IMG/VR virus record: IMGVR_UViG_3300013285_000069
Coordinates: 1 to 25,652 of that record
Length of the DNA stretch: 25,652 nucleotides
Reading direction: 5' to 3' (one strand)
Source of the DNA: a virus
Positions 1 to 22,546 of the stretch are shown piece by piece. The notes under the pieces were generated by a model, which saw only the letters and a program-made list of their open reading frames with translations, had not been told where the DNA came from and did no database searches. A program made the position numbers and the translations under genes. Numbering within the stretch: the first letter of the stretch is position 1; every line of letters starts with the position of its first letter.

Positions 1-155
1 ATGCTGGGGCTATGCACTTCCCAGTTGTCATAGAATTCAATGACTTCGATCTTGTTCATAAACTGGAGCTTGATCGCCTGTTGCCAATCGATGACCGACA
101 GCGGTAACCAACTAAGGGGCTGCCAGTTAGCATTGAGTATTAGAGTTGCTGACAT
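1..155 (-). CDS. HNH endonuclease-like protein, N-terminal part only
   Basis: Reading the minus strand from ATG at 155 gives 51 codons open to the window edge, starting MSATLILNANWQPLSWLPLS and continuing with an AIKLxF segment, an IEVIEFYD segment and VHSPS. This N-terminal pattern (LxLNAxxQPLSxLPLSVxxWQxA, later a V-HSPS turn) is the one I associate with the McrA-like HNH endonucleases common in marine T4-like phages and alphaproteobacteria. The catalytic HNH segment lies outside the window, so activity cannot be judged. A late-promoter-like TGTAAATA (162-169, minus) ends 6 nt before the ATG and there is no Shine-Dalgarno, so a nearly leaderless message is predicted. It is divergent from the next gene. 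Family call is by recalled similarity, not by catalytic residues. Confidence 0.6.
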   Translation of the reverse strand, partial: MSATLILNANWQPLSWLPLSVIDWQQAIKLQFMNKIEVIEFYDNWEVHSPS

Positions 156-161
156 CGCTGT

Positions 162-169
162 TATTTACA
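162..169 (-). promoter_or_regulatory. T4-like late promoter (TGTAAATA)
   Basis: TGTAAATA on the minus strand matches the TAAATA core of the T4 late consensus TATAAATA. Assuming T4 spacing (the element spans about -13 to -6), transcription would start at about 156, one base before the HNH ATG at 155. It forms a divergent pair with the plus-strand element at 220. Confidence 0.5.
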
Positions 170-219
170 CTTTAAGTTATCACTATATAGCATAATAATA
201 TTGATTGGCATAGTTGTCA

Positions 220-227
220 ACTAAATA
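220..227 (+). promoter_or_regulatory. T4-like late promoter (ACTAAATA)
   Basis: ACTAAATA keeps the TAAATA core. With T4 late spacing the start point falls at about 233, which is the A of the ATG of the next gene. No Shine-Dalgarno is present between the element and the ATG, so the message would be leaderless. Confidence 0.6.
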
Positions 228-232
228 TTTTT

Positions 233-1162
233 ATGTCGAACACGTTCACTGTGAAATTTACTTTTGAGAACATTGATTATTGGATTACTATACAATGCTT
301 AGATAATCCAACAATTAATCGTTGGTATCAAAGTGCTAAAGAAGTATATCAATTGCCGCCAATTATCAGTCTGCATAATCATCCCAATCATCAGTCTGCG
401 TTTAACAAAAAAAATAATCAAGAGTTTATAAACAAAAAATATAATGAACTATTAGCAGCTATCGATAACTTTAAGAAAATTGGAGTTTTATGGCCTGATG
501 AGGAACCTGTAGAATTTAATTATGATCAACAATGGTGTAATAAGATTCATCGTTATTTTACTACACTAATGCAGTATAGAAAGTTTAATATTAATTCCGT
601 TGAAATTATTACACAAAATGATACTAATCTACCAATATTTCATAATTTAGGACATGTAGTAAACGACTGTATACATCAAATTGAAAGTTATTGTGTGAAT
701 CAAATACGTCAAAAGTATATGTTAGCCAGTAAAGCTATATTTGTTAATGTTCCAGGTTATAATTCTGACCCAAATAAAACACACAAATGGTATAATTTTA
801 ATCCAGAAGATTATCAATATCATACTTGGGCAGGCGAGTATGATGTAATTTTTGATGCTGAAATTTTAGGTAAAACTACATTTTGTAGTTTTGGTGATGA
901 AGATAACCCCGACTATTTTGATACATCTGGACATCATGGCTGGTTTGGAAGTTTTTTAATATTAGCAGATGATGCCAGAAGTAAAATATATAACTCCAAT
1001 GATTTTAATAATTGGCTAAAGTCACATAATGTTAGTAAGGATTCTCCAAATATAAGAGGAGATTTCCCAATTGGGAAAGTAATAGCAGCCAGTGATCTCA
1101 ACTTTAGAACAATAGAACGTATGAAAAATGCAACAAATTGTTCGGTTATTTTTCATAACTAA
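233..1162 (+). CDS. Hypothetical phage protein with HR...N..H..E signature
   Basis: 309 aa, soluble, rich in Asn, Tyr, His and Trp; no signal peptide or membrane segment. I do not recognise a function. A segment around residues 103-153 contains CNKIHRYFTTLM followed by an N-D-C-I-H-Q-I-E stretch, which resembles the corresponding segment of the protein at 10981-11733 (NTLHRNW...INKVLHELE). The two are probably paralogues; proteins with such LHR/N..H.LE segments recur in marine T4-like phages as far as I recall. A C-terminal G-H-H-G-W-F-G-S-F segment is also notable. The start is fixed by the late promoter just upstream, which leaves no leader. The stop codon is embedded in the late promoter of the terminase gene that follows. 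Function unknown; a late virion or packaging role is only suggested by promoter class and by the terminase next door. Confidence 0.8.
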   Translation: MSNTFTVKFTFENIDYWITIQCLDNPTINRWYQSAKEVYQLPPIISLHNHPNHQSAFNKKNNQEFINKKYNELLAAIDNFKKIGVLWPDEEPVEFNYDQQWCNKIHRYFTTLMQYRKFNINSVEIITQNDTNLPIFHNLGHVVNDCIHQIESYCVNQIRQKYMLASKAIFVNVPGYNSDPNKTHKWYNFNPEDYQYHTWAGEYDVIFDAEILGKTTFCSFGDEDNPDYFDTSGHHGWFGSFLILADDARSKIYNSNDFNNWLKSHNVSKDSPNIRGDFPIGKVIAASDLNFRTIERMKNATNCSVIFHN

Positions 1163-1165
1163 ATA
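1158..1165 (+). promoter_or_regulatory. T4-like late promoter overlapping a stop codon
   Basis: ACTAAATA, in which the TAA stop of the upstream gene (1160-1162) is part of the TAAATA core. The predicted start point at about 1171 leaves three bases before the terminase ATG at 1174, again without a Shine-Dalgarno. Confidence 0.6.
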
Positions 1166-1173
1166 TTATTCAA

Positions 1174-2739
1174 ATGAACACAGAAGATCTAGTTAAAAAA
1201 CCATATCTGAAAATGCCTTATACTTTAGAAGAAGTATTGGAGCTTGAACAAGCTGCTGATCCAGATACAGGCCCTATGTATTTCTTAGAGCACTTTTTCT
1301 ATATACAGCATCCTATTAGAGGTCGTTTATTATTTCAACCATTTGATTATCAAATTGAACTTGTAGCGAATTATCACAATAATCGTTTCAGTATTAATAT
1401 GCTGGGTCGTCAGATGGGTAAAACTACTTGTGCTGCTGGATACTTGCTTTGGTATGCTATGTTTGTTCCTGACTGCACTATTCTAATTGCTGCTCACAAA
1501 TATACAGGCGCACAGGAAATTATGCAACGTATTCGTTATGCGTATGAAAGCTGTCCTAATCATATACGTTGTGGTGTTACTAGTTATAACAAAGGCAGTA
1601 TTGAATTTGATAATGGTTCACGTATTGTCAGTGCTACAACAACTGAAACTACTGGTCGTGGTATGAGTATTTCACTACTATACTGCGACGAATTTGCCTT
1701 CGTCAGACCTACTATTGCTCGTGAATTTTGGACATCAATTAGTCCTACGCTATCAACTGGTGGTAAAGCAATTGTTACTTCAACACCCAACAGTGACGAA
1801 GATCAATTTGCTACAATTTGGAAACTGGCTAATAACAAGTTTGATGAATTTGGTAATGAAATGCCATTGGGTAAAAATGGATTTGCCCCAATCATGTTTC
1901 CATGGGATAAACATCCTGAAAGAACAACCGGCTGGGCAGATCAAGAACGTGCAAGTATTGGCAATGACAGATTTAAACGTGAGCATGAATGTAAGTTTAT
2001 TATCTATGATGAAACACTTATTGCTCCAAGTAAATTAGTTCTAATGGAAGGAGTTAACCCCGTTGAAAAGCAAGGCCAGGTACGATGGTATGAAAAACCA
2101 ATTCCAGATCATATATATGGTGTGGCCCTTGATCCTAGTTTGGGTACTGGCGGCGACCCAGCTGCTATACAAGTATGGGATCTAACTACAATGAAACAAG
2201 TTGCTGAATGGCAACATAATCTAACAATTATCCAACGTCAAGTTGCAATTATGAGTGAGATCTGCAAGTATATTGCTGAAGAAATACAAGACCCAACTAA
2301 CTTATATTATACAATTGAAAACAACACAATTGGAGAAGCAGCACTTAATGCTATATTTGATATAGGTGAAGAACATATCAATGGATCATTTTTAAGTGAG
2401 CCAATGAGTGCAAGTGTAAGCGCAGGAAATCGACGTTATCGTAAAGGATTTTCTACAAATCATCGTGCTAAGATATCAGCTTGCTCTAAGATGAAGTTAT
2501 GGGTTGAGACTGATCGTATGACTGTAAAAAGTAAAAGCTTAATCAGTGAACTTAAGAACTTTGTTGCATCAGGCAACACATATAAAGCTAAGATAGGTGA
2601 AACAGATGATCTTGTAATGTCTACTCTGTTGATAATTAGAATGGCATTACAGTTAAGAAATTATGATTCAGACCTGAGTGATAATCTCAGAGATGAACTT
2701 GATGATATGATAGAGCCAATGCCATTTATGATAATTTAA
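1174..2739 (+). CDS. 17: Terminase large subunit (gp17-like)
   Basis: 521 aa DNA-packaging motor: ATP-driven translocation of concatemeric DNA into the prohead plus headful cutting. ATPase half: adenine-binding Q in LFQPFDYQ (about 53-60), Walker A GRQMGKTT (78-85), Walker B LLYCDEFAF with catalytic Glu (168-176), coupling motif TSTPN (202-206). Nuclease half, RNase H-like: first acidic strand YGVALDPSLGTGGD (about 313-328), second acidic strand YYTIENN, and GETDDLVMST near residue 480 with the third acidic pair. This is the T4 gp17 organisation in a slightly shorter protein (T4 gp17 is about 610 aa). The start follows the late promoter at 1158. The stop overlaps by 4 bp the stop of the convergent minus-strand gene. 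gp16, gp18, gp19 and portal genes are not adjacent in the window, unlike in T4. Confidence 0.96.
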   Translation: MNTEDLVKKPYLKMPYTLEEVLELEQAADPDTGPMYFLEHFFYIQHPIRGRLLFQPFDYQIELVANYHNNRFSINMLGRQMGKTTCAAGYLLWYAMFVPDCTILIAAHKYTGAQEIMQRIRYAYESCPNHIRCGVTSYNKGSIEFDNGSRIVSATTTETTGRGMSISLLYCDEFAFVRPTIAREFWTSISPTLSTGGKAIVTSTPNSDEDQFATIWKLANNKFDEFGNEMPLGKNGFAPIMFPWDKHPERTTGWADQERASIGNDRFKREHECKFIIYDETLIAPSKLVLMEGVNPVEKQGQVRWYEKPIPDHIYGVALDPSLGTGGDPAAIQVWDLTTMKQVAEWQHNLTIIQRQVAIMSEICKYIAEEIQDPTNLYYTIENNTIGEAALNAIFDIGEEHINGSFLSEPMSASVSAGNRRYRKGFSTNHRAKISACSKMKLWVETDRMTVKSKSLISELKNFVASGNTYKAKIGETDDLVMSTLLIIRMALQLRNYDSDLSDNLRDELDDMIEPMPFMII

Positions 2740-3620
2740 CTACTATGATTCATCTTGGGGAAAGGTGGTTCCCCATGTTCTTTATAGTGCTTGTATAAAA
2801 CACGATTGCTTAGTATCTCAACCCATAGATCATGTTCGGGTTTATTTAACTCCCAGAAATTAAATGTCATATGACTTTGTACAGGACGAATAAAGAATGT
2901 TTTTTCTTCTGGAATAATCATAATTTGGCTTGTTGTTCGCATTTGCTTTTTGTCATGTGCTGTGCGTAATACATTAAGCTGTGGATTATCAACATATGTT
3001 CCTGCCATGCCATCAATAATATCTTCTGGAGTCTCTGCTTTATTAACGATAGACTGTGCAATTTTACGTCTGCTATCACTGCTAATGCGACTGGCAGTTT
3101 GATTATCATCCACACCACGTTGATATCCTGCCCAGTCTAACCAAACACCATGATTGGTTCTTGTAATTGTTCTATCTCTTGGCACTTCATGAATGACATA
3201 TTCATAATCTTCATCGGCGTATCCGCCAATCTTCCACGCACCTTCTAATAGATAACACGTATCACGATCAAATATAAGTGTGTTTCCAGTTAGCTTTTGT
3301 TTAATTAGGCTCATAGCAGCAGCTTTAACATTAGGATATCTTAATGCTCTCTTAATCTTAAGTCCATCTTTGCTAGGAGTTTTTGATCTCTTTGTAATTT
3401 CTTTTTCATCATCCATTACCATCAAGCTGGCACTTAATATAGCAACACCGCCACTATTAAAACCTTCGCTGTATTGGGTAATGTCGTCCCAGAAAAGCAT
3501 TGTTTCAACACCTTTTCCTTGTATTCTTTTAAAACTAATCTCAGGAATGTAGTTACGATCACGGTTTTTAACCCCAACCCATCCCTTACCTTCAAAATAT
3601 TTGGCAGCTACAACACACAT
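2736..3620 (-). CDS. Ntn-hydrolase-like protein with N-terminal Cys
   Basis: Two ATGs lie near the 5' end (3626 and 3620). I choose 3620 because it gives Met-Cys at the N-terminus and because the late promoter CATAAATA (3626-3633) overlaps the first ATG and predicts a start point at 3620. The product is 294 aa. MCVVAAKYFEGKGWVGVKNR followed by D-R places a potential Cys2 nucleophile ahead of an N-R-D motif, the arrangement of N-terminal-nucleophile amidases (choloylglycine hydrolase/acyltransferase and TANGO2/NRDE-type). Later strands (SGGVAILSASLMV, NTLIFDRDTCYLLEGAW) also fit that alpha-beta-beta-alpha fold. Similar proteins occur in marine T4-like phages from memory; substrate unknown. If correct, it acts as an amidase or acyltransferase after Met removal. 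It is convergent with terminase and divergent from the virion-protein block. Confidence 0.6.
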   Translation of the reverse strand: MCVVAAKYFEGKGWVGVKNRDRNYIPEISFKRIQGKGVETMLFWDDITQYSEGFNSGGVAILSASLMVMDDEKEITKRSKTPSKDGLKIKRALRYPNVKAAAMSLIKQKLTGNTLIFDRDTCYLLEGAWKIGGYADEDYEYVIHEVPRDRTITRTNHGVWLDWAGYQRGVDDNQTASRISSDSRRKIAQSIVNKAETPEDIIDGMAGTYVDNPQLNVLRTAHDKKQMRTTSQIMIIPEEKTFFIRPVQSHMTFNFWELNKPEHDLWVEILSNRVLYKHYKEHGEPPFPKMNHSS

Positions 3621-3625
3621 AAACA

Positions 3626-3633
3626 TATTTATG
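3626..3633 (-). promoter_or_regulatory. T4-like late promoter (CATAAATA)
   Basis: CATAAATA on the minus strand differs from the T4 late consensus only at the first base. The predicted start point is at about 3620, coincident with the chosen ATG of the Ntn-hydrolase-like gene. It forms a back-to-back pair with the plus-strand element at 3659. Confidence 0.6.
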
Positions 3634-3658
3634 GATTATTACAACTTTGCTCAAACAA

Positions 3659-3666
3659 GCTAAATA
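3659..3666 (+). promoter_or_regulatory. T4-like late promoter (GCTAAATA)
   Basis: GCTAAATA is followed by TTATT and ATG at 3672. T4 spacing puts +1 on the A of that ATG. There is no Shine-Dalgarno, so this is another predicted leaderless late mRNA. The element decides the start of the following gene against a longer in-frame reading from 3474. Confidence 0.6.
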
Positions 3667-3671
3667 TTATT

Positions 3672-5477
3672 ATGTCAGGCATAGAAACAGCAGCAAATGA
3701 TTTATTTTTCAAATTGCGTAATCGCTTTCCTCATATCACTATGGGTGATGAAGATAGCACCACTACTAGTAATCCAACGGATGCTAAATTTTTTAGTTTT
3801 GATTACGAAGAAAATGATGTTAAGTTTGGAAATATTACTGCCAGTTTAATTGATGGCCAAAATCTAAAACTATACTTCAGTCAAGACGTTACCAAATACA
3901 TGGACCGTGAAGAAAAGCAAAGTTGGTATAGATTTCTACAGGAAATTAGAAAGTTTGCAAAGAGCCATATGTTAGGTTTAGATGTTCGCGATATCAGTAA
4001 AGATGTCTTAAACGATAAGGATTTAAAGTTTGTGTCAAATCAAAATAAAGAAAAAAGCCAAATTGGCGAAAGTCGTGTGCTATGGGCACGTCGCGGTACA
4101 GTCAGTGAAGGCGATGTAGGCAATGTGCGTGTGCATGTTGTTCATAGCGAGCGTATGGATGAGAATCCAAACAATAGACTACTTAGAGTTGACCGTATTT
4201 TTCTTGTTAACGAATCAGGTGAGCGTTTCCTGTTGCCATTTAAAAGTGTAATGGCAGCTAAGGCCATGGCTAATCACGTTGGCAGAGGTGGCAATCCATA
4301 TGATGGTACAGGTAAGCTGATCAGCACTGCTGTCAATGAGATGAGCAATCTACGTCGCTTTGCCAGTGCTACACGTCGTAAGACTTTTGAGAGTGAAGAT
4401 GCAAATCAAGTAATTACTGCTGCACAGGCAATTAAAGAAAGTATCAAGCGTAGTTTACATCGTTTAGCCAACAATACTAGATTTGATGAGAATTTAGAAG
4501 ATCTAGGCAAGCTACTTGCTGAACAGGAAGATGTAGAAGATATTAAGCCATACTTCACACAAACTGCATACAATGAGAATTTAGACAATTGGATTGGTAG
4601 TGCTGCAAAGGCATTTAAACAGTATAAGGGAAATATTATGGAAAATCTCAGAGAATCAGCTGGCTCTGTAGCACAGAAATTATCAGATCCAAATTGGCTT
4701 ATGGTATTAAAAGATGAACCAAGTGAAGACAGACTTATTACTACCAGCAAGTATGCAGATGGTCGTGCATTACTACGTCGCATCCTAGGAACTATTGCTG
4801 ATCGTGCCAGTATGGATGACAGTGATGTTGCAAATTGGGCAAGTCAAATTGGCCAGGATATGGAACTTGGTAATGCCAGTCAGCAGGATATGCAGATTGC
4901 ATTACAGTTGGCCAAGCGTTATCAAACTGATCTTGCACAGATGGCACAGAGCCCAGAGTATGCCAAGCAGATTCGTGTTGCTGCATTCGGTCAGAAGAAA
5001 GACCTGTATGGTAAGACAAAAGACGAGTCGATGGAATTTGAAGACTATGTAAACGGTGTAGGTGAAGATGGTCCAGTAATTCAACAAAGTGGTAGTAACC
5101 CATTGCCCCCAATGTCAGCAATGGATCGTATTCATCAAAAGCTAGGAACTGGTCCATTTGCTCCTCAGACAGTTCAGCCAACTAATACTGAACCACTGCC
5201 AGGAAGTCCAGGCGCCGGACCAGAAGATAGAGCAGCATTAACTCGCATGATTGATAATGAAAGCGAAGAAATGGACGAAGCTTGTGGTGATACTGCAATG
5301 GACAGAATCAGTGCAAGGGTAGCTCCCAGAGACGGCGAAACAACTCCAATGGAGCGTGTAAGTGAGCGTGTAGCTACTAGAACTTCAGCTGACACTGTTA
5401 ATGAAAAAGCAGTAACTAACGAAGCTCTTGATACTATGTTGTGGTTATCGGGCGTAAAAAAAAAAAGTCTGATGTAA
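3672..5477 (+). CDS. Large probable virion protein, frameshift donor (ORF A)
   Basis: 601 aa with no family I can name. The first 250 or so residues look globular (GNITASLIDGQNLKLYFSQD, SQIGESRVLWARRGT, VHVVHSERM, RLLRVDRIFLVNESGERFLLPF); the middle is helical and charged; residues beyond about 470 are Pro/Gly/Ser-rich and contain three M-(D/E)-R-(I/V) helices starting at M484, M543 and M560. The C-terminus carries LWLSGV (590-595), a variant of the LAG motif shared with the next three proteins. The last codons cross an A11 run (5456-5466), where the zero frame reads GTA AAA AAA AAA AGT and stops 9 nt later. A -1 slip there joins the following frame. Promoter class and neighbours suggest a structural or internal head protein; this is inference. 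Confidence 0.75.
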   Translation: MSGIETAANDLFFKLRNRFPHITMGDEDSTTTSNPTDAKFFSFDYEENDVKFGNITASLIDGQNLKLYFSQDVTKYMDREEKQSWYRFLQEIRKFAKSHMLGLDVRDISKDVLNDKDLKFVSNQNKEKSQIGESRVLWARRGTVSEGDVGNVRVHVVHSERMDENPNNRLLRVDRIFLVNESGERFLLPFKSVMAAKAMANHVGRGGNPYDGTGKLISTAVNEMSNLRRFASATRRKTFESEDANQVITAAQAIKESIKRSLHRLANNTRFDENLEDLGKLLAEQEDVEDIKPYFTQTAYNENLDNWIGSAAKAFKQYKGNIMENLRESAGSVAQKLSDPNWLMVLKDEPSEDRLITTSKYADGRALLRRILGTIADRASMDDSDVANWASQIGQDMELGNASQQDMQIALQLAKRYQTDLAQMAQSPEYAKQIRVAAFGQKKDLYGKTKDESMEFEDYVNGVGEDGPVIQQSGSNPLPPMSAMDRIHQKLGTGPFAPQTVQPTNTEPLPGSPGAGPEDRAALTRMIDNESEEMDEACGDTAMDRISARVAPRDGETTPMERVSERVATRTSADTVNEKAVTNEALDTMLWLSGVKKKSLM

Positions 5478-5993: not shown

Positions 5994-8069
5994 ATGGATA
6001 AGAAATTAAATGAAGATTTAAACCGTATTAGAAAGCTATCTGGCTTAGTCGAAGACGATAGAACTTGGACAGAAAGATTGCCAGATGGTACGGTAAGAAC
6101 ACATCGATATGGATATAGTGATGAAAAGCCTGGCTATAATGGATACAATGATATAGGTGATGAAGGTAATGGACCAAGTAAAGGTTATGGTCTAGGAAGT
6201 GGACAATATGGAACAGGGACAGGTTCTGGATCTGCTGGCATTGGCTATGGGTCGGGCAATAGCGGCACTGGATTTGGTCAAGGCAACAGTCAAGGATCAA
6301 GCAGACAAGGAACTGGAAGTGGTAGCGGCTACGGACAAACGCAGGGGTTACCTGGTGGAGGCGCCGGTTCTTCCCCATCAGTGGGTGTCGGAAGTGGCAC
6401 AACAATTCAAAGATTACCCAGTGGCGGAACTATAACATCAACAATCACTGGCGGGTATCCTGGAGAATATTCTGATTCAGATTACGATGAGCCAGTAGCA
6501 AAACCTAGTAAAAATAGTAAAAGCAAACAACAACGTCCTGATCCGGAAGATGATCCTAGTTATGATGCTTATCCTGAAGTACCAAAAAATCAATATAAAG
6601 ATATGTCTAAGGAACCATCTCCATATGTAAATCCATCATGGCAGAAAGAACAAGATAGAATAAAACAACAACAGCAACAGCCATTACCTAGTGCTACTAC
6701 TTCGTTAGGCAAGGTTCCTCCTAAAGAACCTGTTAAAGTTGAGCCTTCTAAAGAAGTTCCAACATTACCCAGTTCTACTACTTCTCTAGGTAAAGCTCCG
6801 CCTACTAGTATTGCAAAAGACTTATTATTAAAGGAGCCTCCTAAAGAAGTTCCAGCATTACCTAATGCTACTAGCTCTTTAGGTAAACTTCCAACACCTG
6901 CTCCTAAAATTGAGCCACCCAAGCAGGAACCTGCTAAAAATGAGCTACCTAAAGAAGTTCCAACATTACCTAGTGCTACTACTTCGTTAGGTAAACTTCC
7001 ACCTAAACCAATGCCTAAAACACCTGAGACAACAGTTGTTAAGCATAATGAGAAACCATCGGATGATACTATTACTCCTTCACATCCAGGAATAACTGTT
7101 AATGCACCTACTGACAGCAAGCCGGTAGATACTTCAACTGTTGGTTCTGGTATAACCACTCCAGCAGCTATTCCTGCTCCTCCAGTAACTAGCCCTAAAA
7201 TAGATCTTCCAGTTGTTGACTTAACACCTACACACCCTGATAGACCTACAAAACCAGATTCAATGACACCTGATGCAGTTGACCTTCACATGCTTCAAGA
7301 ACCTCCAAGTAAAGAACCGGGAGTTGCACAACAGATATTATTACCTAAAAATGAACCTACACCACCAACTAATCCAACTAAACCAGCTGATCAACCTGCT
7401 AATATAGAACTTATGCCTATGAGCAAGGATGATGCAGATAAAGTGTTTGGTAAAATGCCTGGTTCATCAAATCCTTCTCCAAAACCTTCAGCAGCTGGCG
7501 CTGGTAGTGGTTCACCTGGTGATAGTGCAAATGGAACAAGCGGTGCAAGCGGAGAAAAAGGTGGAGGGGAAAAGGGTGGAAAATATATTCCAATTACTCC
7601 TAAGACAATGGGTTCTCCTGTAAGTGATCAACCAAGTTGGGCTGCACAACAACGTGCTTCTCAAGGTAAACCACTGGCTGGCGATCCTGAGATTAAAAAA
7701 CCCGAAGATATATCTGGAGCTAAAGGGTCTATACAGGCACCAAATGATGCAAATGCAGATATTATATCAAAAGGTAATAAAGCAACTATAAACATGTCTC
7801 CAGCTGATGCAGCTAAAGCACAGACTAATGTGTTTAAACCAGAAAGTCCTGGGACAGAAACTCCAGTGGATACTACACTGCCAGATGACGGAGCTCGTAT
7901 AATAGATATTAAAGGACCTGGCAATAAAAGCGAAAGCATGGAGCGTATGCTTCAGTTGGCTGGAATTAAAGAAAGCACCAGAGTAGAGCGTCAATTTTTA
8001 ACAGAATCTAGTTTACCTAAAACAAATAGTATAGCTGATACATTTAAGCGACTAGCTGGTCTGAAATAA
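5994..8069 (+). CDS. Low-complexity Gly/Pro-rich probable virion protein with terminal LAG motifs (ORF C)
   Basis: 691 aa, almost wholly low complexity. The N-terminus has RIRKLSGLVED (11-21): a LAG-type motif followed by L-V-E, which fits the T4 prohead-protease pattern (L/I)xE. Residues about 56-125 are Gly/Ser/Gln-rich. Four copies of LP(S/N)(A/S)T(T/S)SLGK(V/A/L)P occur at about 231-242, 258-269, 289-300 and 325-336, separated by EPPKEVP-type linkers. The rest is a Pro/Lys/Thr-rich linker. The C-terminus holds LQLAGIKES (653-661), then FLTESS (668-673, another LxE) and finally FKRLAGLK (684-691), nearly identical to the end of ORF D. The start is one base after the ORF B stop, with GGAAGAAAG as Shine-Dalgarno. 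No enzymatic domain is visible. Probably a disordered or fibrous virion or scaffold-core protein. Confidence 0.75.
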   Translation: MDKKLNEDLNRIRKLSGLVEDDRTWTERLPDGTVRTHRYGYSDEKPGYNGYNDIGDEGNGPSKGYGLGSGQYGTGTGSGSAGIGYGSGNSGTGFGQGNSQGSSRQGTGSGSGYGQTQGLPGGGAGSSPSVGVGSGTTIQRLPSGGTITSTITGGYPGEYSDSDYDEPVAKPSKNSKSKQQRPDPEDDPSYDAYPEVPKNQYKDMSKEPSPYVNPSWQKEQDRIKQQQQQPLPSATTSLGKVPPKEPVKVEPSKEVPTLPSSTTSLGKAPPTSIAKDLLLKEPPKEVPALPNATSSLGKLPTPAPKIEPPKQEPAKNELPKEVPTLPSATTSLGKLPPKPMPKTPETTVVKHNEKPSDDTITPSHPGITVNAPTDSKPVDTSTVGSGITTPAAIPAPPVTSPKIDLPVVDLTPTHPDRPTKPDSMTPDAVDLHMLQEPPSKEPGVAQQILLPKNEPTPPTNPTKPADQPANIELMPMSKDDADKVFGKMPGSSNPSPKPSAAGAGSGSPGDSANGTSGASGEKGGGEKGGKYIPITPKTMGSPVSDQPSWAAQQRASQGKPLAGDPEIKKPEDISGAKGSIQAPNDANADIISKGNKATINMSPADAAKAQTNVFKPESPGTETPVDTTLPDDGARIIDIKGPGNKSESMERMLQLAGIKESTRVERQFLTESSLPKTNSIADTFKRLAGLK
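6684..7001 (+). repeat. Four imperfect coding repeats (SLGK-P units)
   Basis: Within ORF C, four units encode LP-(S/N)-(A/S)-T-(T/S)-SLGK followed by V/A/L-P, spaced by 27, 31 and 36 residues. Nucleotide identity between copies is high (for example the shared ATTACC-AGT-CTACTACTTC stretches), which suggests repeat expansion by recombination. Confidence 0.7.
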
Positions 8070-8072
8070 ATA
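8065..8072 (+). promoter_or_regulatory. T4-like late promoter overlapping ORF C stop
   Basis: AATAAATA includes the TAA stop of ORF C (8067-8069). The predicted start at about 8078 leaves a short leader containing the Shine-Dalgarno CGGAG (8081-8085) before the ATG at 8092. Unlike the leaderless group, this gene uses a normal ribosome binding site. Confidence 0.6.
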
Positions 8073-8091: not shown

Positions 8092-9795
8092 ATGGCCAAC
8101 GGCAAAAGAGAATTAATTGAAGATATTAGCGACATTCGTCGACTAGCTGGGCTGTCAGAAGCTCCTAAAAAACCAGCATCAAATCCTCAAGACATTGAAG
8201 GTAAGGGAGATTTAGGTGGTATATTTGGCAATCCTAAAGGCAGTGATTATCAGTCAAAAGGCGGACAAGTTGTTAGTCCTCAAGGCAAGGTAAATTGGGG
8301 CGATCCAGATAGTGCATCTGATTTCTTCCGTGCTGATAAGATGCAACAAGCTCAGCAAGCACAAGCTGAACCTGCACCAAAAGCAGCAGCACCAAAAGCA
8401 CCAGCACAATCAGTTGATGATATTAAAGCTTTCCAACGTGCAAATGGTCTTTCCCCAGATGGCATTGTTGGTCCCAAAACTAGAGAAGCTCAAGCTAGAG
8501 CTAATTCGACTCCTAAAGATCAAAGAAATACAATTGGCGGCGTAGCTCCTGAATTATCAACAGCACGTTATGATATGCCAGATAAGCCAACTGATACTGA
8601 AAAAGCTTTACAGTATCCACAAGGCGGTCCACCGCAGGCACAGACAAAACCGCAAGGTTCAGTTTATGCTCCACCGGCAGTACCAGGTACAGACACTGTT
8701 CCGCAGTCAATGTATAGAATTCCAGGTAGCGATATTGCTAATCCAGGTGTTCAAAAGCCAACACAAAGTATTACTAATCAACCACCTGCGGCAACTACAC
8801 CTAGACAACCTGAGATGATTAGCGATCCAGATAAATCTAGAAATACTTCCCCAAAAGAAGCGCCACCTCCATTACCTAGTCCCAAACCATTTGTTGAACC
8901 AAAAACATTTACTCCACCAGATAAAAAACCAGCAGCATCAAACGCTCCATATTCGCCCGGCGGCGGCGCAGTTGATGATAAGCGCACTTTCTTACAAAGA
9001 AATCTTCCAAATGCACTTGGCGGTTTAGATGCACCTCCTCAAATCAATCCATCAGCACCTAAACTAGAAATACCAAAAAATATAGCACCTGCTCCTATGC
9101 CAGTGATTAGAACTCCTACACCAAATGTTGACAATATGCCTGTTCAACAATTTAAAGGTCCTAACGTAGATCCAGGCATGGATGCAACTAACAAGCTACC
9201 AAAAATTGAACCTTTTAAAGGCGACATGGGAGATTCATTCACCGGCAGTGCTGGGCCCACACCTAAGGCTACAGCCCCTAAGCCGCAAGCAAACCTAAAT
9301 CGTTCTAGAGATGATATTAATTTTGATACTGCTGACAAAGATCCCGATACAATGAAAGACATTGTTAAGGAACTACGACAAATGGCTGGTATTCCAGAAG
9401 ACGGCATACCAGGACAGGGTATGGCACAGGAAGCAATGAATCGTTACGAGTCAGAAGAAAAAATGGATGAAGAAGATGAAATGGAAGAAGGTAACGAATT
9501 CTCCGGCGCATTAGCAAAAGCAAAGGCAACACATCAAGATAAATTTGAAGTTGGCGGAAAAACATATGATGTAAAAGAAGCTCAGGAGCGCACAATGAGT
9601 CGTGCAGCCAAGGGTTATGAAAAGTATGGCAAAGAAGGCATGAAAGCTCTGGCTAAAGCAGGCAAAGAAGGCAAAGATCTAGACAAAGTCAGAGACAAGT
9701 ACAACAAGTATGATGATAAAGTAGAAGAAGGCATCGAAGTAAATCCAATTAACGATAGCTTGGCTTTGATCAAGAGATTAGCAGGTCTAAAATAA
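8092..9795 (+). CDS. Probable virion protein with peptidoglycan-binding domain and LAG motifs (ORF D)
   Basis: 567 aa. The N-terminal tag DIRRLAGLSEAPKK (14-27) combines a LAG motif with L-S-E followed by A, a close match to the T4 gp21 protease consensus (L/I)xE|A. Residues about 107-138 (SVDDIKAFQRANGLSPDGIV, then GPKTREA) form a PG_binding_1-type repeat, which binds peptidoglycan. A Pro/Gln-rich linker follows, then LRQMAGIPEDG (428-438), another LAG motif with I-P-E. The C-terminal third has an acidic patch and a segment starting ALAKAKATHQDKFEVGGKTY and containing KGYEKYGKEGMKALAKAGKE, a module I recall in many marine T4-like phage proteins. The last residues are ALIKRLAGLK. Shine-Dalgarno CGGAG, 6 nt from the ATG. 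Likely packaged or structural; a role in crossing the cell wall is inferred from the peptidoglycan domain. Confidence 0.75.
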   Translation: MANGKRELIEDISDIRRLAGLSEAPKKPASNPQDIEGKGDLGGIFGNPKGSDYQSKGGQVVSPQGKVNWGDPDSASDFFRADKMQQAQQAQAEPAPKAAAPKAPAQSVDDIKAFQRANGLSPDGIVGPKTREAQARANSTPKDQRNTIGGVAPELSTARYDMPDKPTDTEKALQYPQGGPPQAQTKPQGSVYAPPAVPGTDTVPQSMYRIPGSDIANPGVQKPTQSITNQPPAATTPRQPEMISDPDKSRNTSPKEAPPPLPSPKPFVEPKTFTPPDKKPAASNAPYSPGGGAVDDKRTFLQRNLPNALGGLDAPPQINPSAPKLEIPKNIAPAPMPVIRTPTPNVDNMPVQQFKGPNVDPGMDATNKLPKIEPFKGDMGDSFTGSAGPTPKATAPKPQANLNRSRDDINFDTADKDPDTMKDIVKELRQMAGIPEDGIPGQGMAQEAMNRYESEEKMDEEDEMEEGNEFSGALAKAKATHQDKFEVGGKTYDVKEAQERTMSRAAKGYEKYGKEGMKALAKAGKEGKDLDKVRDKYNKYDDKVEEGIEVNPINDSLALIKRLAGLK

Positions 9796-9859: not shown

Positions 9860-9890
9860 TTGACTATAGATGAGCAATCAAGTATAAATA
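9860..9890 (+). promoter_or_regulatory. Hybrid early/late promoter of gp32
   Basis: TTGACT (9860-9865) is followed by 17 bp and TATAAA (9883-9888), a good sigma70 promoter. The same -10 is the first six bases of a perfect T4 late consensus TATAAATA (9883-9890). One site could thus serve host polymerase early and the phage sliding-clamp/late-sigma system later. Predicted start near 9896, leaving a leader of about 52 nt before the gp32 ATG. Confidence 0.65.
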
Positions 9891-9947
9891 ACTATGACGT
9901 TGATAGTAGTTGCTTTCAACGATCGGGCAAAACAAAGGAAAAGTAAA

Positions 9948-13470: not shown

Positions 13471-14278
13471 GAAAGCCCAGCTGTAATCCCATTTTTGAAG
13501 TATTATAGCTGGCAAACTTACGATAATCCCCTGTATAATTATTAGGGCTTACTTCATCTACTATAATCTTTGCTTCACTAAATGTGATAAAATTAAAAGA
13601 TTTAGCAAGATCACTTAACAACATTTTATCCTGATAAACAAGATTAATATCTTTATGTGTTGCTTTACCGTTAGCAACAATGTCAATCATTGGGGGTATG
13701 TCCTCGAGGTTAATAAAATCAAAATACCTATCCTGATAGATGTGATAATCCTTCTTGGGATTACTGTGAATCTTCTTAAAAAATCTCTTGGGACTTTCGC
13801 TGTAATGGAATACGCCAAACAGTCTGAGATTATAGAATTCTTCATACTGGATTAGGTCTTTGGCAATTTGATTTTTAACAAAACCATATGAGTGCTTTGG
13901 CTCTTTATCAAAAATCTCAAGCTCATCTGCATAATCAATATTTGTATCCGTGTCAAACTCATTACCTGTAGCAAGATTAATTAGACGTTTAAACCTATGA
14001 CGATTACGAACAAGATTGTCCCACATACGAAGATTATCTCTAATAATAGGATCGTTCATTGAGTTTTTAAGCTCATACAAGTTTTCGCGACCTATTAAAG
14101 CAGTATGTATAACAAGATCAAAGTATATGCTGCCATTAAAGAATGTATTAACAGCATTTGCATCTAATAGATCTAACTTATCTCTGCTACATGCAAATAT
14201 TTGATGTCCTGCTTCTCTAAAGTATGCTGCAAGATATGAACCAATAAAGCCATTGGCGCCGGTAATCATAATACGCAT
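13460..14278 (-). CDS. NAD(P)-dependent SDR epimerase/reductase
   Basis: 272 aa extended short-chain dehydrogenase. Rossmann motif GANGFIGS at 7-14, DLLD acidic turn, VIHTA strand after it, NLATGNEF (T104 in the Ser/Thr position) and catalytic Y131-G-F-V-K135. Start taken at ATG 14278 (MRIMITG), because the upstream alternative is a TTG inside the preceding gene; the reading overlaps the end of that gene by 13 bp. Overall resembles GDP-fucose synthase, dTDP-4-keto-rhamnose reductase and UDP-sugar epimerase relatives; the substrate cannot be told from sequence. Co-directional with the glycosyltransferase-like gene and divergent from UDP-galactopyranose mutase, so nucleotide-sugar remodelling is the likely role. 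Confidence 0.88.
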   Translation of the reverse strand: MRIMITGANGFIGSYLAAYFREAGHQIFACSRDKLDLLDANAVNTFFNGSIYFDLVIHTALIGRENLYELKNSMNDPIIRDNLRMWDNLVRNRHRFKRLINLATGNEFDTDTNIDYADELEIFDKEPKHSYGFVKNQIAKDLIQYEEFYNLRLFGVFHYSESPKRFFKKIHSNPKKDYHIYQDRYFDFINLEDIPPMIDIVANGKATHKDINLVYQDKMLLSDLAKSFNFITFSEAKIIVDEVSPNNYTGDYRKFASYNTSKMGLQLGFLRY

Positions 14279-15090
14279 GTCATTGCCCAATCTTTGCCCC
14301 AGTCAGTTTTACCTTCAGGCACTGGTGGCCTCAATGCCAAGTAATCATATAGAAAATCTCTACTTCTTGCATCAATTGCACAGTCTTTAGCAGCAAGTAT
14401 CTTTCTCTGATCAGGCCCTAGTCTAGCATCATAAAGTTCTCTAAATGGTCTGATCTTCAAACGATCTTCATGCATTAGCAAGAATGAACTTATTAATCTT
14501 TCACAAATGAAACCTCTATAATCTAGTTTTTGATTGTCGCCATATCCAGCTGAACTGTTAAGAAGATCCAAATATTCATCAGGAAGTCTGCCACATACAT
14601 CAACAAATTGATGTAACATACCCATCATTCCAGCCCAAAACTTACCATTACCGACAAAATAGTTTGCACATAGATAATGTCTGGTCCCCATTGGTGCTTG
14701 TAGTCTTTTAGGATCAATATCCATATCAGCAAAGATACGCTCTGCTAGTTTTAATATTTCAGGATGACACCATTGTCCTTGCTCCCATACATTCCAATGA
14801 GTAACTGTTTCATGTGGGAAAGGATGAAATGTATAAACATCATAACCTGGATTAATATTAATATGATCCATAATGAAAGCAGCAGGAACACCTGGCATTT
14901 TGCGTTTCCATTGCCAACTAAAATGACCCCATAAATCCTCGTTAGTTTTCAACGCTTCTTGAAATATCTTAGTATAGATATAATACTCGTGCAAATTTAC
15001 CACCGGATTAGCAGTGTTATCATAAGGAGTAAATTCTGGATCTAAATGAGCTTGTTGCTCTTCTTTGTAATAGGCTTGAAATATTTTCAT
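14266..15090 (-). CDS. Glycosyltransferase-like surface-sugar protein
   Basis: 274 aa. Begins MKIFQAYYKEEQQAHLDPEF; later DLWGHFSWQWKRKMPGVPAA, NPGYDVYTFHPFP, NYFVGNGKFWAGMM and YRGFICERLISSFL. The 'aspects seen' pattern (D-x-W-G-x-x-S-W, NPGYDVY-FxPFP, later F-ER-L-S) resembles uncharacterised glycosyltransferases in capsule/LPS clusters, with the final E-R-L region like DUF4422-type enzymes, but I see no certain DXD motif. Confidence rests partly on the neighbours: an SDR enzyme 3', and UDP-galactopyranose mutase divergent upstream. No Shine-Dalgarno precedes the ATG at 15090. It would transfer or modify a sugar in the cytoplasm or at the inner membrane. Confidence 0.5.
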   Translation of the reverse strand: MKIFQAYYKEEQQAHLDPEFTPYDNTANPVVNLHEYYIYTKIFQEALKTNEDLWGHFSWQWKRKMPGVPAAFIMDHININPGYDVYTFHPFPHETVTHWNVWEQGQWCHPEILKLAERIFADMDIDPKRLQAPMGTRHYLCANYFVGNGKFWAGMMGMLHQFVDVCGRLPDEYLDLLNSSAGYGDNQKLDYRGFICERLISSFLLMHEDRLKIRPFRELYDARLGPDQRKILAAKDCAIDARSRDFLYDYLALRPPVPEGKTDWGKDWAMTCVL

Positions 15091-15106
15091 CGTTGATACT
15101 TAGTTG

Positions 15107-18480: not shown

Positions 18481-18489
18481 CATAAGCGG

Positions 18490-18536
18490 CTCCGTTGTAT
18501 AAATAGTAATGTCAATAAAACTATTATACAACGGAG
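18490..18536 (+). promoter_or_regulatory. RBS-sequestering hairpin with embedded late promoter
   Basis: Left arm 18490-18507 (CTCCGTTGTATAAATAGT) pairs with right arm 18520-18536 (ACTATTATACAACGGAG) over 17 bp with one bulged A. The right arm ends in ACGGAG, the Shine-Dalgarno for the TTG start at 18546 (9-nt spacing). The left arm contains a perfect TATAAATA (18498-18505), whose start point at about 18511 falls in the loop. Read-through (early) RNA would fold and hide the site; late RNA lacks the left arm and is translatable. This is the arrangement known for T4 e, soc and I-TevI. Confidence 0.85.
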
Positions 18537-18545
18537 TGCAGCGTT

Positions 18546-19187
18546 TTGTTTTACACTATCTATAAAATAACAAATTTAATAAACAACAAATTTTATATAG
18601 GAAAACATCAAACTAATAATGTTGATGATGGGTATATGGGTTCTGGTAAGTTAATTATAGAAGCTATTAAAAAATATGGGGTAGATAATTTCAAGAAAGA
18701 TATACTTTATATATTTGATAACGAAAAAGACATGAATAACGCAGAGAAAGATTTAGTTATTTTATCTGAAAATAGTTACAATCTATGTCCCGGTGGTCGA
18801 GGTGGTTTTGGATACATTAATAAAAATATCGATTTACAACAAAGAAATAGAGATATAAACTCTCGTAAAAATTATAATGATCCAGTATTACGACAACGAC
18901 TTTCTGAAGGACAAAAAAGAGCACTTCCTTTTAGAAAACCCCCAGTGATATCGGATGAATCGAGATCTAAAAAACTTGCACCGTTAAAAAGAGGCAATAC
19001 CCCTGAAGCAATTATAAAGAAAAAAGAAACTTGGAAGAAAAATAATAGAGGCATTGGTAAAAATAATTCTCAATTTGGTACTTGTTGGGTTACGAATGAA
19101 ATAGAAAATAAGAAAATTAAAAAAGAAGAAATTGATTTCTATTTAAATAACGGGTATAATAAAGGTAGAAAGATTAAACATCAATGA
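18546..19187 (+). CDS. GIY-YIG homing endonuclease (Seg/I-TevI-like)
   Basis: 213 aa from a TTG start, fixed by ACGGAG in the hairpin arm. N-terminal nuclease domain (1-85): YTIY (3-6) and FYIG (16-19) are the GIY and YIG elements, GSGKLIIEAIKKYG with KYGVDNFKKDIL is the usual third block, and the Glu in NNAEKDL (about 67) is the metal ligand. The linker and C-terminal DNA-binding part (NSQFGTCWVTNEIENKKIKK and the final YNKGRK) match the repeats seen in phage Seg-like free-standing endonucleases. Codon use is more AT-rich than in neighbours (many AAA/ATA/AAT), consistent with a mobile gene. It cuts an allele lacking it and spreads by recombination. Overlaps the next gene by ATGA. Confidence 0.9.
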   Translation: MFYTIYKITNLINNKFYIGKHQTNNVDDGYMGSGKLIIEAIKKYGVDNFKKDILYIFDNEKDMNNAEKDLVILSENSYNLCPGGRGGFGYINKNIDLQQRNRDINSRKNYNDPVLRQRLSEGQKRALPFRKPPVISDESRSKKLAPLKRGNTPEAIIKKKETWKKNNRGIGKNNSQFGTCWVTNEIENKKIKKEEIDFYLNNGYNKGRKIKHQ

Positions 19188-22098: not shown

Positions 22099-22106
22099 TA
22101 TTTATT
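22099..22106 (-). promoter_or_regulatory. T4-like late promoter (AATAAATA)
   Basis: AATAAATA on the minus strand, predicted start near 22093, just ahead of AGAGGA and the ATG at 22078. It lies four bases from the plus-strand TTGACA at 22110, so early rightward and late leftward transcription abut. Confidence 0.65.
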
Positions 22107-22518: not shown

Positions 22519-22546
22519 TTGACGTATTCCCAAAAGAGCTTATATT
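22519..22546 (+). promoter_or_regulatory. Sigma70-like promoter, leaderless start predicted
   Basis: TTGACG (22519-22524), 16 bp, TATATT (22541-22546). The expected start, about 7 bases after the -10, falls on or next to the ATG at 22553, and no Shine-Dalgarno is present. Confidence 0.7.

Follow-up and report, generated by a model that had tools for sequence, protein, structure and literature searches.

The stretch analysed here is an IMG/VR virus record of 25,652 bases (IMGVR_UViG_3300013285_000069, hereafter the window) with a G+C content of 38.8%. It encodes a T4-type terminase large subunit (TerL), a single-stranded DNA-binding protein (gp32), UvsX, UvsY and a helicase fragment. Among named phages, the closest relatives of its TerL are jumbo phages of the PA5oct type (53.8%), and other IMG/VR contigs reach up to 85% identity. 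In a tree of 55 TerL rows, 51 (the window and 50 environmental loci) group together and PA5oct stands apart (100/99). The late genes of phage T4 have the box TATAAATA at positions -13 to -6 (PMC1524935). Here, we describe boxes with the core TAAATA or TAAGTA that lie only a few nucleotides (nt) upstream of start codons in the window, and the same placement in related viruses.

TAAATA boxes precede the ATGs at 155, 233, 1174, 3620 and 3672 (Table 1). A preliminary description of the sequence had read these five as a cluster of late promoters at positions 155-3672. All five coordinates and distances were confirmed, with a Shine-Dalgarno (SD) sequence at none of them. Such sites also occur outside this interval, as a sixth, TAAGTA-N6-ATG, lies before 15090 on the minus strand. 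Two late genes that had been set apart as having ordinary leaders, at 8092 and 22078, do have their boxes 19 and 20 nt upstream, with an SD-like sequence between box and start. Counted against expectation, the association of box and start is strong: TAA[AG]TA stands 4-8 nt upstream of 6 of 27 curated starts, picked by the analyst from the list of open reading frames (ORFs) and by homology, and of 1 of the 1002 remaining ATGs. Circular shifts of the window starts (20,000) gave a mean of 0.081 short-spacing sites and a maximum of 2. TATAAATA with at most one mismatch was found 57 times against 61.7 expected, so that there is no excess; it is the placement of the box, not its abundance, that stands out in the window. 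With the automatic gene caller that was applied to the other genomes, short spacing was found at only 4 of 45 start ATGs, because the cut ORF at 155 is uncallable and the caller stops short of ATG 3672, which sits 66 codons inside a longer open frame. The TATAAATA before the listed gp32 start at 9894 was tried as a seventh short-spacing site and rejected, since homologues start 17 codons later, after an SD. This corresponds to ATG 9949, which follows AAAGGA and is probably the true start, so that the transcript would have a leader and the listed start is probably wrong.

Table 1 Features of the window. Distances are from the box to the ATG.
Feature	Position	Strand	Remarks
TAAATA late-promoter box	162-167	-	6 nt before ATG 155 of the HNH-like ORF
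HNH-like ORF, N-terminal part	3-155	-	ATG 155; cut by the left end of the window
TAAATA box	222-227	+	5 nt before ATG 233
309-residue ORF, predicted leaderless	233-1162	+	without family match
TAAATA box	1160-1165	+	8 nt before terL ATG 1174; TAA of the box is the stop codon of the upstream ORF
terL, terminase large subunit	1174-2739	+	phrog_36964, E 1.1e-118; predicted 5' leader 2-3 nt
TAAATA box	3626-3631	-	5 nt before ATG 3620
294-residue ORF, start 3620	2736-3620	-	without family match; ATG 3626 overlaps the box
TAAATA box	3661-3666	+	5 nt before ATG 3672; divergent from the box at 3626-3631
Virion structural gene after terL, predicted leaderless	3672-5477	+	phrog_13484, E 3.3e-10, weak match
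Ordinary late box, for contrast	8067-8072	+	19 nt and SD-like sequence before ATG 8092
TATAAATA upstream of gp32, for contrast	9883-9890	+	3 nt before listed ATG 9894
TAAGTA box	15097-15102	-	6 nt before ATG 15090; missing from the preliminary list
274-residue ORF, predicted leader 0-1 nt	14266-15090	-	without family match
Ordinary late box, for contrast	22099-22104	-	20 nt and SD-like sequence before ATG 22078
Candidate sigma70-type promoter TTGACG-N16-TATATT	22519-22546	+	6 nt before ATG 22553; single site, low confidence

The same placement was found in nine related contigs of 66-354 kilobases (kb). TAA[AG]TA was counted upstream of each candidate ATG within codons 1-50 of ORFs that do not overlap and have 90 amino acids or more. 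Contig G003 (a near copy of G002) and contigs G007, G011 and G013 were left out of these counts, G004 and G005 lacked their last 1,732 and 49 bases, and phage Phosso, one of the controls, was represented by 400 of its 469 kb. The distance from box to ATG is bimodal in the relatives, with a peak at 4-8 nt (mode 5), a valley with few boxes at 9-16 nt and a second group at 17-35 nt. In the nine contigs and the window together, the 2705 start ATGs have 133, 35 and 230 boxes in these three ranges, as compared with 9, 19 and 45 at 7572 internal ATGs of the same genes. For the short class alone, the difference between starts and internal ATGs has a p value of 2.5e-66, and per base this class is six times the valley. 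The 354-kb contig by itself has 31 distinct short-spacing genes (31/599 starts against 5/1687 internal ATGs, p 4.8e-14). Taken contig by contig, the Fisher p values for this comparison run from 4.8e-14 to 1.3e-3, with 7.1e-3 for the window.

Six control phages, T4, cyanophage ACG-2014d, PA5oct, Vibrio 2.275, 121Q and Phosso, have 16, 45 and 269 boxes in the same ranges at 3587 starts. Only their long class stands out and the short peak is absent, so that the ratio of short to long boxes is 16:269 in the controls and 133:230 in the relatives and window (p 7e-23). T4, whose late promoters work with gp55, gp33 and gp45, has a box at 4-8 nt for none of its 378 start ATGs, while in the relatives and window this distance accounts for 133 of the 363 boxes of the short and long classes, which is over a third. 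Phage 121Q has 5 of 923 starts against 1 of 1646 internal ATGs (p 0.025, nominal), yet this is under its own valley. In an unbiased scan of hexamers by spacing over 2660 candidate starts, TAAATA at 5 nt was the top pair that is not SD-like, with 52 seen and 7.4 expected. SD-like 4-mers are present at 5 of the 133 short-spacing sites as compared with 138 of the 230 long-spacing sites. A second hexamer, TATAAT, also stands 4-8 nt upstream of 40/2705 starts in the relatives and window against 10/7572 internal ATGs (controls, 11/3587). Its peak in the relatives is at 5-6 nt, several of these sites have TTGACA-like -35 boxes, and the controls have no such peak. It is confined to the longer contigs, being absent from 56 shorter terL loci (2/14/27 at 4-8/9-16/17-35 nt). 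Statistical support for this class comes from the relatives, the window having a single candidate before ATG 22553.

Larger sets of loci, filtered for near duplicates, were obtained from 80 (window TerL), 63 (PA5oct), 79 (Phosso), 80 (Cr30), 12 (121Q) and 80 (cyanophage) loci. The counts of TAA[AG]TA at 4-8/9-16/17-35 nt are 184/16/120 for the window's TerL (56 loci), 93/7/69 in an additional 28 loci found with the PA5oct TerL, 61/13/75 in 29 loci for Phosso, 27/26/76 in 47 loci for Cr30, 11/3/21 in 7 loci for 121Q and 1/15/129 in 50 loci for the cyanophage. In the Phosso set, the loci nearest Phosso carry 0-2 short sites each, and L395 carries none. For phage Atu_ph07, a whole-genome pattern count, the only count made, gave 16 matches against 19 in the reversed control, and the first 50 kb of Delftia phage PhiW-14 have no box at 4-8 nt. 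A cultured example is Pelagibacter phage HTVC008M, whose host is Candidatus Pelagibacter ubique HTCC1062. This phage has the short class at 16 of 309 starts and at none of 771 internal ATGs (p 1.5e-9), beside 11 long-class genes. Among 24 annotated starts inspected, a selection that covers every short-class start with a spacing of 5 or 8 nt as well as genes for comparison, 13 have TAAATA 5 or 8 nt before the ATG. The short-box genes, many of them structural, include those of the tape measure, tail tube cap, DNA end protector, head closure, baseplate and neck, while an SD-like sequence, with no box near the start, precedes the genes for the major head, tail sheath and tail tube proteins. The DNA end protector and head closure genes form a divergent pair. 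At NC_020484 18916-18943, the two late promoters of a divergent pair share a short gap; 26 bases separate the start codons, and each box lies near or over the start of the other gene. Methylophilales phage Melnitz has 3 short-spacing sites with near-perfect boxes (p 0.16, not significant alone). The records of both phages are listed under Kyanoviridae.

Orthologous upstream regions, thinned to those that are distinct (less than 80% identical over 60 nt), were then compared; before thinning there were 77 hits for the gene after terL, 42 for the HNH-like gene, 83 for terL, 50 for uvsX and 40 for uvsY. A few loci in these sets come from isolates (for terL: PA5oct, Phosso, 121Q and Vibrio 2.275), and those have no short box. 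Of the 53 distinct regions for the gene after terL, 45 have a box at 4-8 nt and the remaining 8 at 17-35 nt, with none between. A short box was found in 14 of 26 distinct regions of the HNH-like gene and in 26 of 55 of terL, as opposed to 0 of 44 for uvsX (42 with an SD-like site) and 0 of 31 for uvsY, which served as non-late controls. The TerL starts of L044, behind an SD, and of L051, behind TAAGTA-N5, are closely similar and both open with ATGGCTAAATCACT, which indicates that the start codon is constant while the signal upstream varies. Conserved TATAAATA-like boxes, one mark of a T4-type late promoter, thus stand near terL, the portal-like gene and other late genes. At the level of sequence, these comparisons show that, throughout a large group of T4-related phages, some late genes keep the box at a distance of 4-8 nt (mode 5), and that other boxes are found 17-35 nt before the start, in most cases with an intervening SD.

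The bases around the short-spacing sites agree with a transcription start 6 nt past the box. Of 61 sites with 5-nt spacing, 94% have a pyrimidine directly ahead of the ATG (T 79%, C 15%), and a pyrimidine-purine step is usual at bacterial transcription start points. Position 6 after the box is A in 69% or G in 15% of the 8-nt class (n=13; purine 84%), and position 5 is A in 71% of the 7-nt class (n=17), for which leaders of 3 nt are predicted. The term leaderless is used here for a predicted leader of 0-3 nt.

From these patterns we consider it very probable that gp55-type late promoters, and some of sigma70 type, start transcription at the AUG or within about 3 nt of it, giving leaderless mRNAs beside SD-led ones. 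The boxes would be recognised by a gp55-like late sigma factor, as late promoters of the T4 type. As T4 spacing and the base pattern suggest, RNA polymerase would begin at the A of the ATG or no more than about 3 nt upstream. The leaderless mRNAs would be read by 70S ribosomes binding the 5'-terminal AUG, beside SD-led translation, if they behave as leaderless mRNAs generally do. Some host-sigma70-type promoters appear to be placed likewise in the relatives. The arrangement would probably be selected for by efficient translation of leaderless mRNA in the host together with a compact genome, and a full promoter could then fit a gap of a dozen bases. The preliminary description had put forward late promoters for leaderless mRNAs that coexist with an SD-led mode, and the comparisons support both proposals. 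The support comes from the 5-nt peak in the nine related contigs, from the late orthologues that keep the box in dissimilar upstream regions, from the gp55 homologues of related contigs, from the T or C before the ATG and from the SD-bearing group at 17-35 nt.

Other explanations were weighed against this one. TAAATA could be frequent near ATGs in AT-rich DNA by chance, as the unremarkable number of TATAAATA matches in the window might suggest; however, the control ATGs, internal (9/7572) and non-start (1/1002), refute this, and T4, PA5oct and 121Q are AT-rich and have no peak, which leaves chance a negligible probability. The box might instead be a non-SD translation signal, either a Kozak-like A-rich context or a stop codon over the start region for coupling, and not a promoter. 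The box does stand in for the SD at nearly all short sites, and at 20 of the 133 the upstream gene ends with the TAA of the box. This reading is nevertheless quite improbable, as the related contigs and the T4-type controls also carry the hexamer at 17-35 nt, together with an SD distinct from it, uvsX and uvsY never show it at short spacing, and sigma70-type promoters are placed alike. Furthermore, a divergent gene start lies within 150 nt at 36 of the 133 short sites, where there is probably no upstream gene to couple to.

The promoters could also be real and the assumed ATGs wrong, with SD-led starts downstream and ordinary leaders, as probably holds for gp32 at 9894. As a general account this is highly improbable: orthologues of terL, the portal-like gene and the HNH-like gene start at these ATGs, with alignable N-termini and either a box or an SD upstream, and misplaced starts would not produce a peak at a single spacing. 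The main remaining alternative is a quantitative one, in which transcription does begin at the ATG, yet leaderless mRNA is only a minor species and most protein comes from read-through mRNAs begun upstream. In its favour, a gene on the same strand ends at the box or no more than 30 nt before it at 48 of the 133 sites. We hold it to be unlikely, as read-through mRNAs would equally have no SD at these genes, and terminator-like hairpins with T runs lie immediately upstream of several 5-nt sites (seen by eye, uncounted).

Several points weigh against leaderless transcription from these boxes. The gp55 start-site spacing is carried over from T4, and in the 4-nt class (n=21) transcription would have to begin one base closer to the box than it does in T4. 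In the automatic count, the short class against the valley alone is not significant in G010 (p 0.13), G009 (p 0.083) or the window (p 0.076), and the counts across contigs share ancestry and are thus not fully independent. The absence of an SD at short sites is partly forced, because the box fills its place. TAA[AG]TA lies at 4-8 nt in just 26 of 55 distinct upstream regions of terL. No gp55 gene is present in the 25.7-kb window, and the T4 sliding-clamp family phrog_223 was found in 0 of 12 related contigs, its only matches being T4 and Vibrio 2.275, so that the activation machinery may differ.

As for the remaining machinery, half of the 12 related contigs (6) and all 6 isolates searched gave a match to a gp55-like late sigma factor (phrog_12791/phrog_234). 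Most contigs without a match are shorter fragments, G004 (202 kb) being the exception. Both HTVC008M and Melnitz have annotated clamp genes. Ribosomal protein bS21 is encoded by 4 of the 12 related contigs. Of the 5 jumbo isolates searched, all but PA5oct gave a match to the IF3_C domain (records W03, W04, W05 and W06), while none of the 12 related contigs did. IF3 was not found in HTVC008M, Melnitz or two cyanophages either, so that its presence or absence alone does not predict the mode. A terL scan of genome contigs for the host of the window gave no relative, and a scan with a phage bS21 matched 32 scattered loci, all of them weakly, with identities no higher than 56% over short segments.

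The arrangement is T4-like in its box sequence and in the gp55-like sigma factor of related contigs, and the position from -13 to -6 that is assumed for the box is the T4 value (PMC1524935, PMC2988020). The core is also shared by the late promoter of Aeromonas phage Aeh1, CTAAATA (PMC1524935), and by jumbo phage CBB, which has ATAAATA at 35 places (PMC5259590), the first base being variable; the word leaderless has no occurrence in either text. Known leaderless mRNAs, in bacteria and for lambda cI, have the AUG at or near the 5' end and use 70S initiation, which high IF3 disfavours (PMC9031893). They are a feature of hosts or of single phage genes, whereas the placement class described here is linked to a phage sigma factor and comprises as many as 31 genes in one contig. 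The occurrence of leaderless mRNA in phages has precedent, since the paper on jumbo phage AR9 describes phage transcripts as often leaderless; AR9 itself has 5' untranslated regions of 26-491 nt and encodes its own RNA polymerases (PMC5312081). Fifteen late promoters were counted in Melnitz by a TATAAAT search, and in the passages of that paper that were consulted the short-spacing arrangement is not described (PMC9004378). HTVC008M shares the short-spacing peak with the relatives of the window, and Melnitz has three such sites. Among titles and abstract beginnings of the open-licence literature, the scope of our search (subscription papers lay outside it), no description of T4-type late promoters on start codons was found. 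Late transcripts of phiKZ begin near the AUG. A late promoter that abuts the start codon is not expected for this kind of virus; the parts are known and the placement is new.

These results suggest that late promoters of a class known from decades of work on T4 also occupy a second, conserved position in many of its uncultured relatives, for which a sharp molecular prediction can be made at each start codon. Since HTVC008M was isolated on HTCC1062, the claim is testable in a known phage-host pair. The placement also bears on gene-start calling, which often relies on the SD, and it may help to explain why late-promoter prediction was unsuccessful in a survey of pelagimyophages (PMC7029224). It is possible, although we think it doubtful, that a large share of the uncultured T4-related phages, together with one or more pelagiphages in culture, operate two modes of translation in parallel, one SD-led and one leaderless that includes late structural genes and results from a late promoter whose start point falls on the AUG. 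The leaderless set could then be favoured late in infection as the ribosome pool changes, a phage-driven translational switch that would track the ability of the host to read leaderless mRNA.

Some further features of the window and its relatives can be described. The intervals 155-233 and 3620-3672 each separate a divergent gene pair, with both late promoters within the short gap. The ORF at 3-155, called HNH-like after its label in the preliminary description, gave no match in PHROGs and Pfam searches. The name portal-like for the gene at 3672-5477 refers to its position, the family that it matches weakly being a virion structural protein. Two ORFs of about 300 residues each, 233-1162 and 2736-3620, flank terL; neither has a PHROGs or Pfam match, and the N-terminus of each was recovered in only two of the loci searched. 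The orthologue of the first in L007 (63%) carries TAAATA-N5-ATG, and those of the second in L007 and L009 carry TAAATA-N4-ATG. The bS21 gene of two related contigs immediately follows a ClpX-like gene (L282 291-1704; L281 1453-2866), with family matches for ClpX in L282 and for bS21 in L281. Finally, a strong hairpin is present at 18489-18537 of the window (-24.7 kcal/mol, z -4.9). Its 5' arm contains TATAAATA, and its 3' arm contains the GGAG that precedes a homing endonuclease-like ORF at 18546, which matches phrog_314 and has a GIY-YIG Pfam match slightly below the cut-off. A late transcript would begin in the hairpin loop, at about 18511, and would thus escape the hairpin, an arrangement that resembles the one reported for T4 gene e and I-TevI (PMC3014915).

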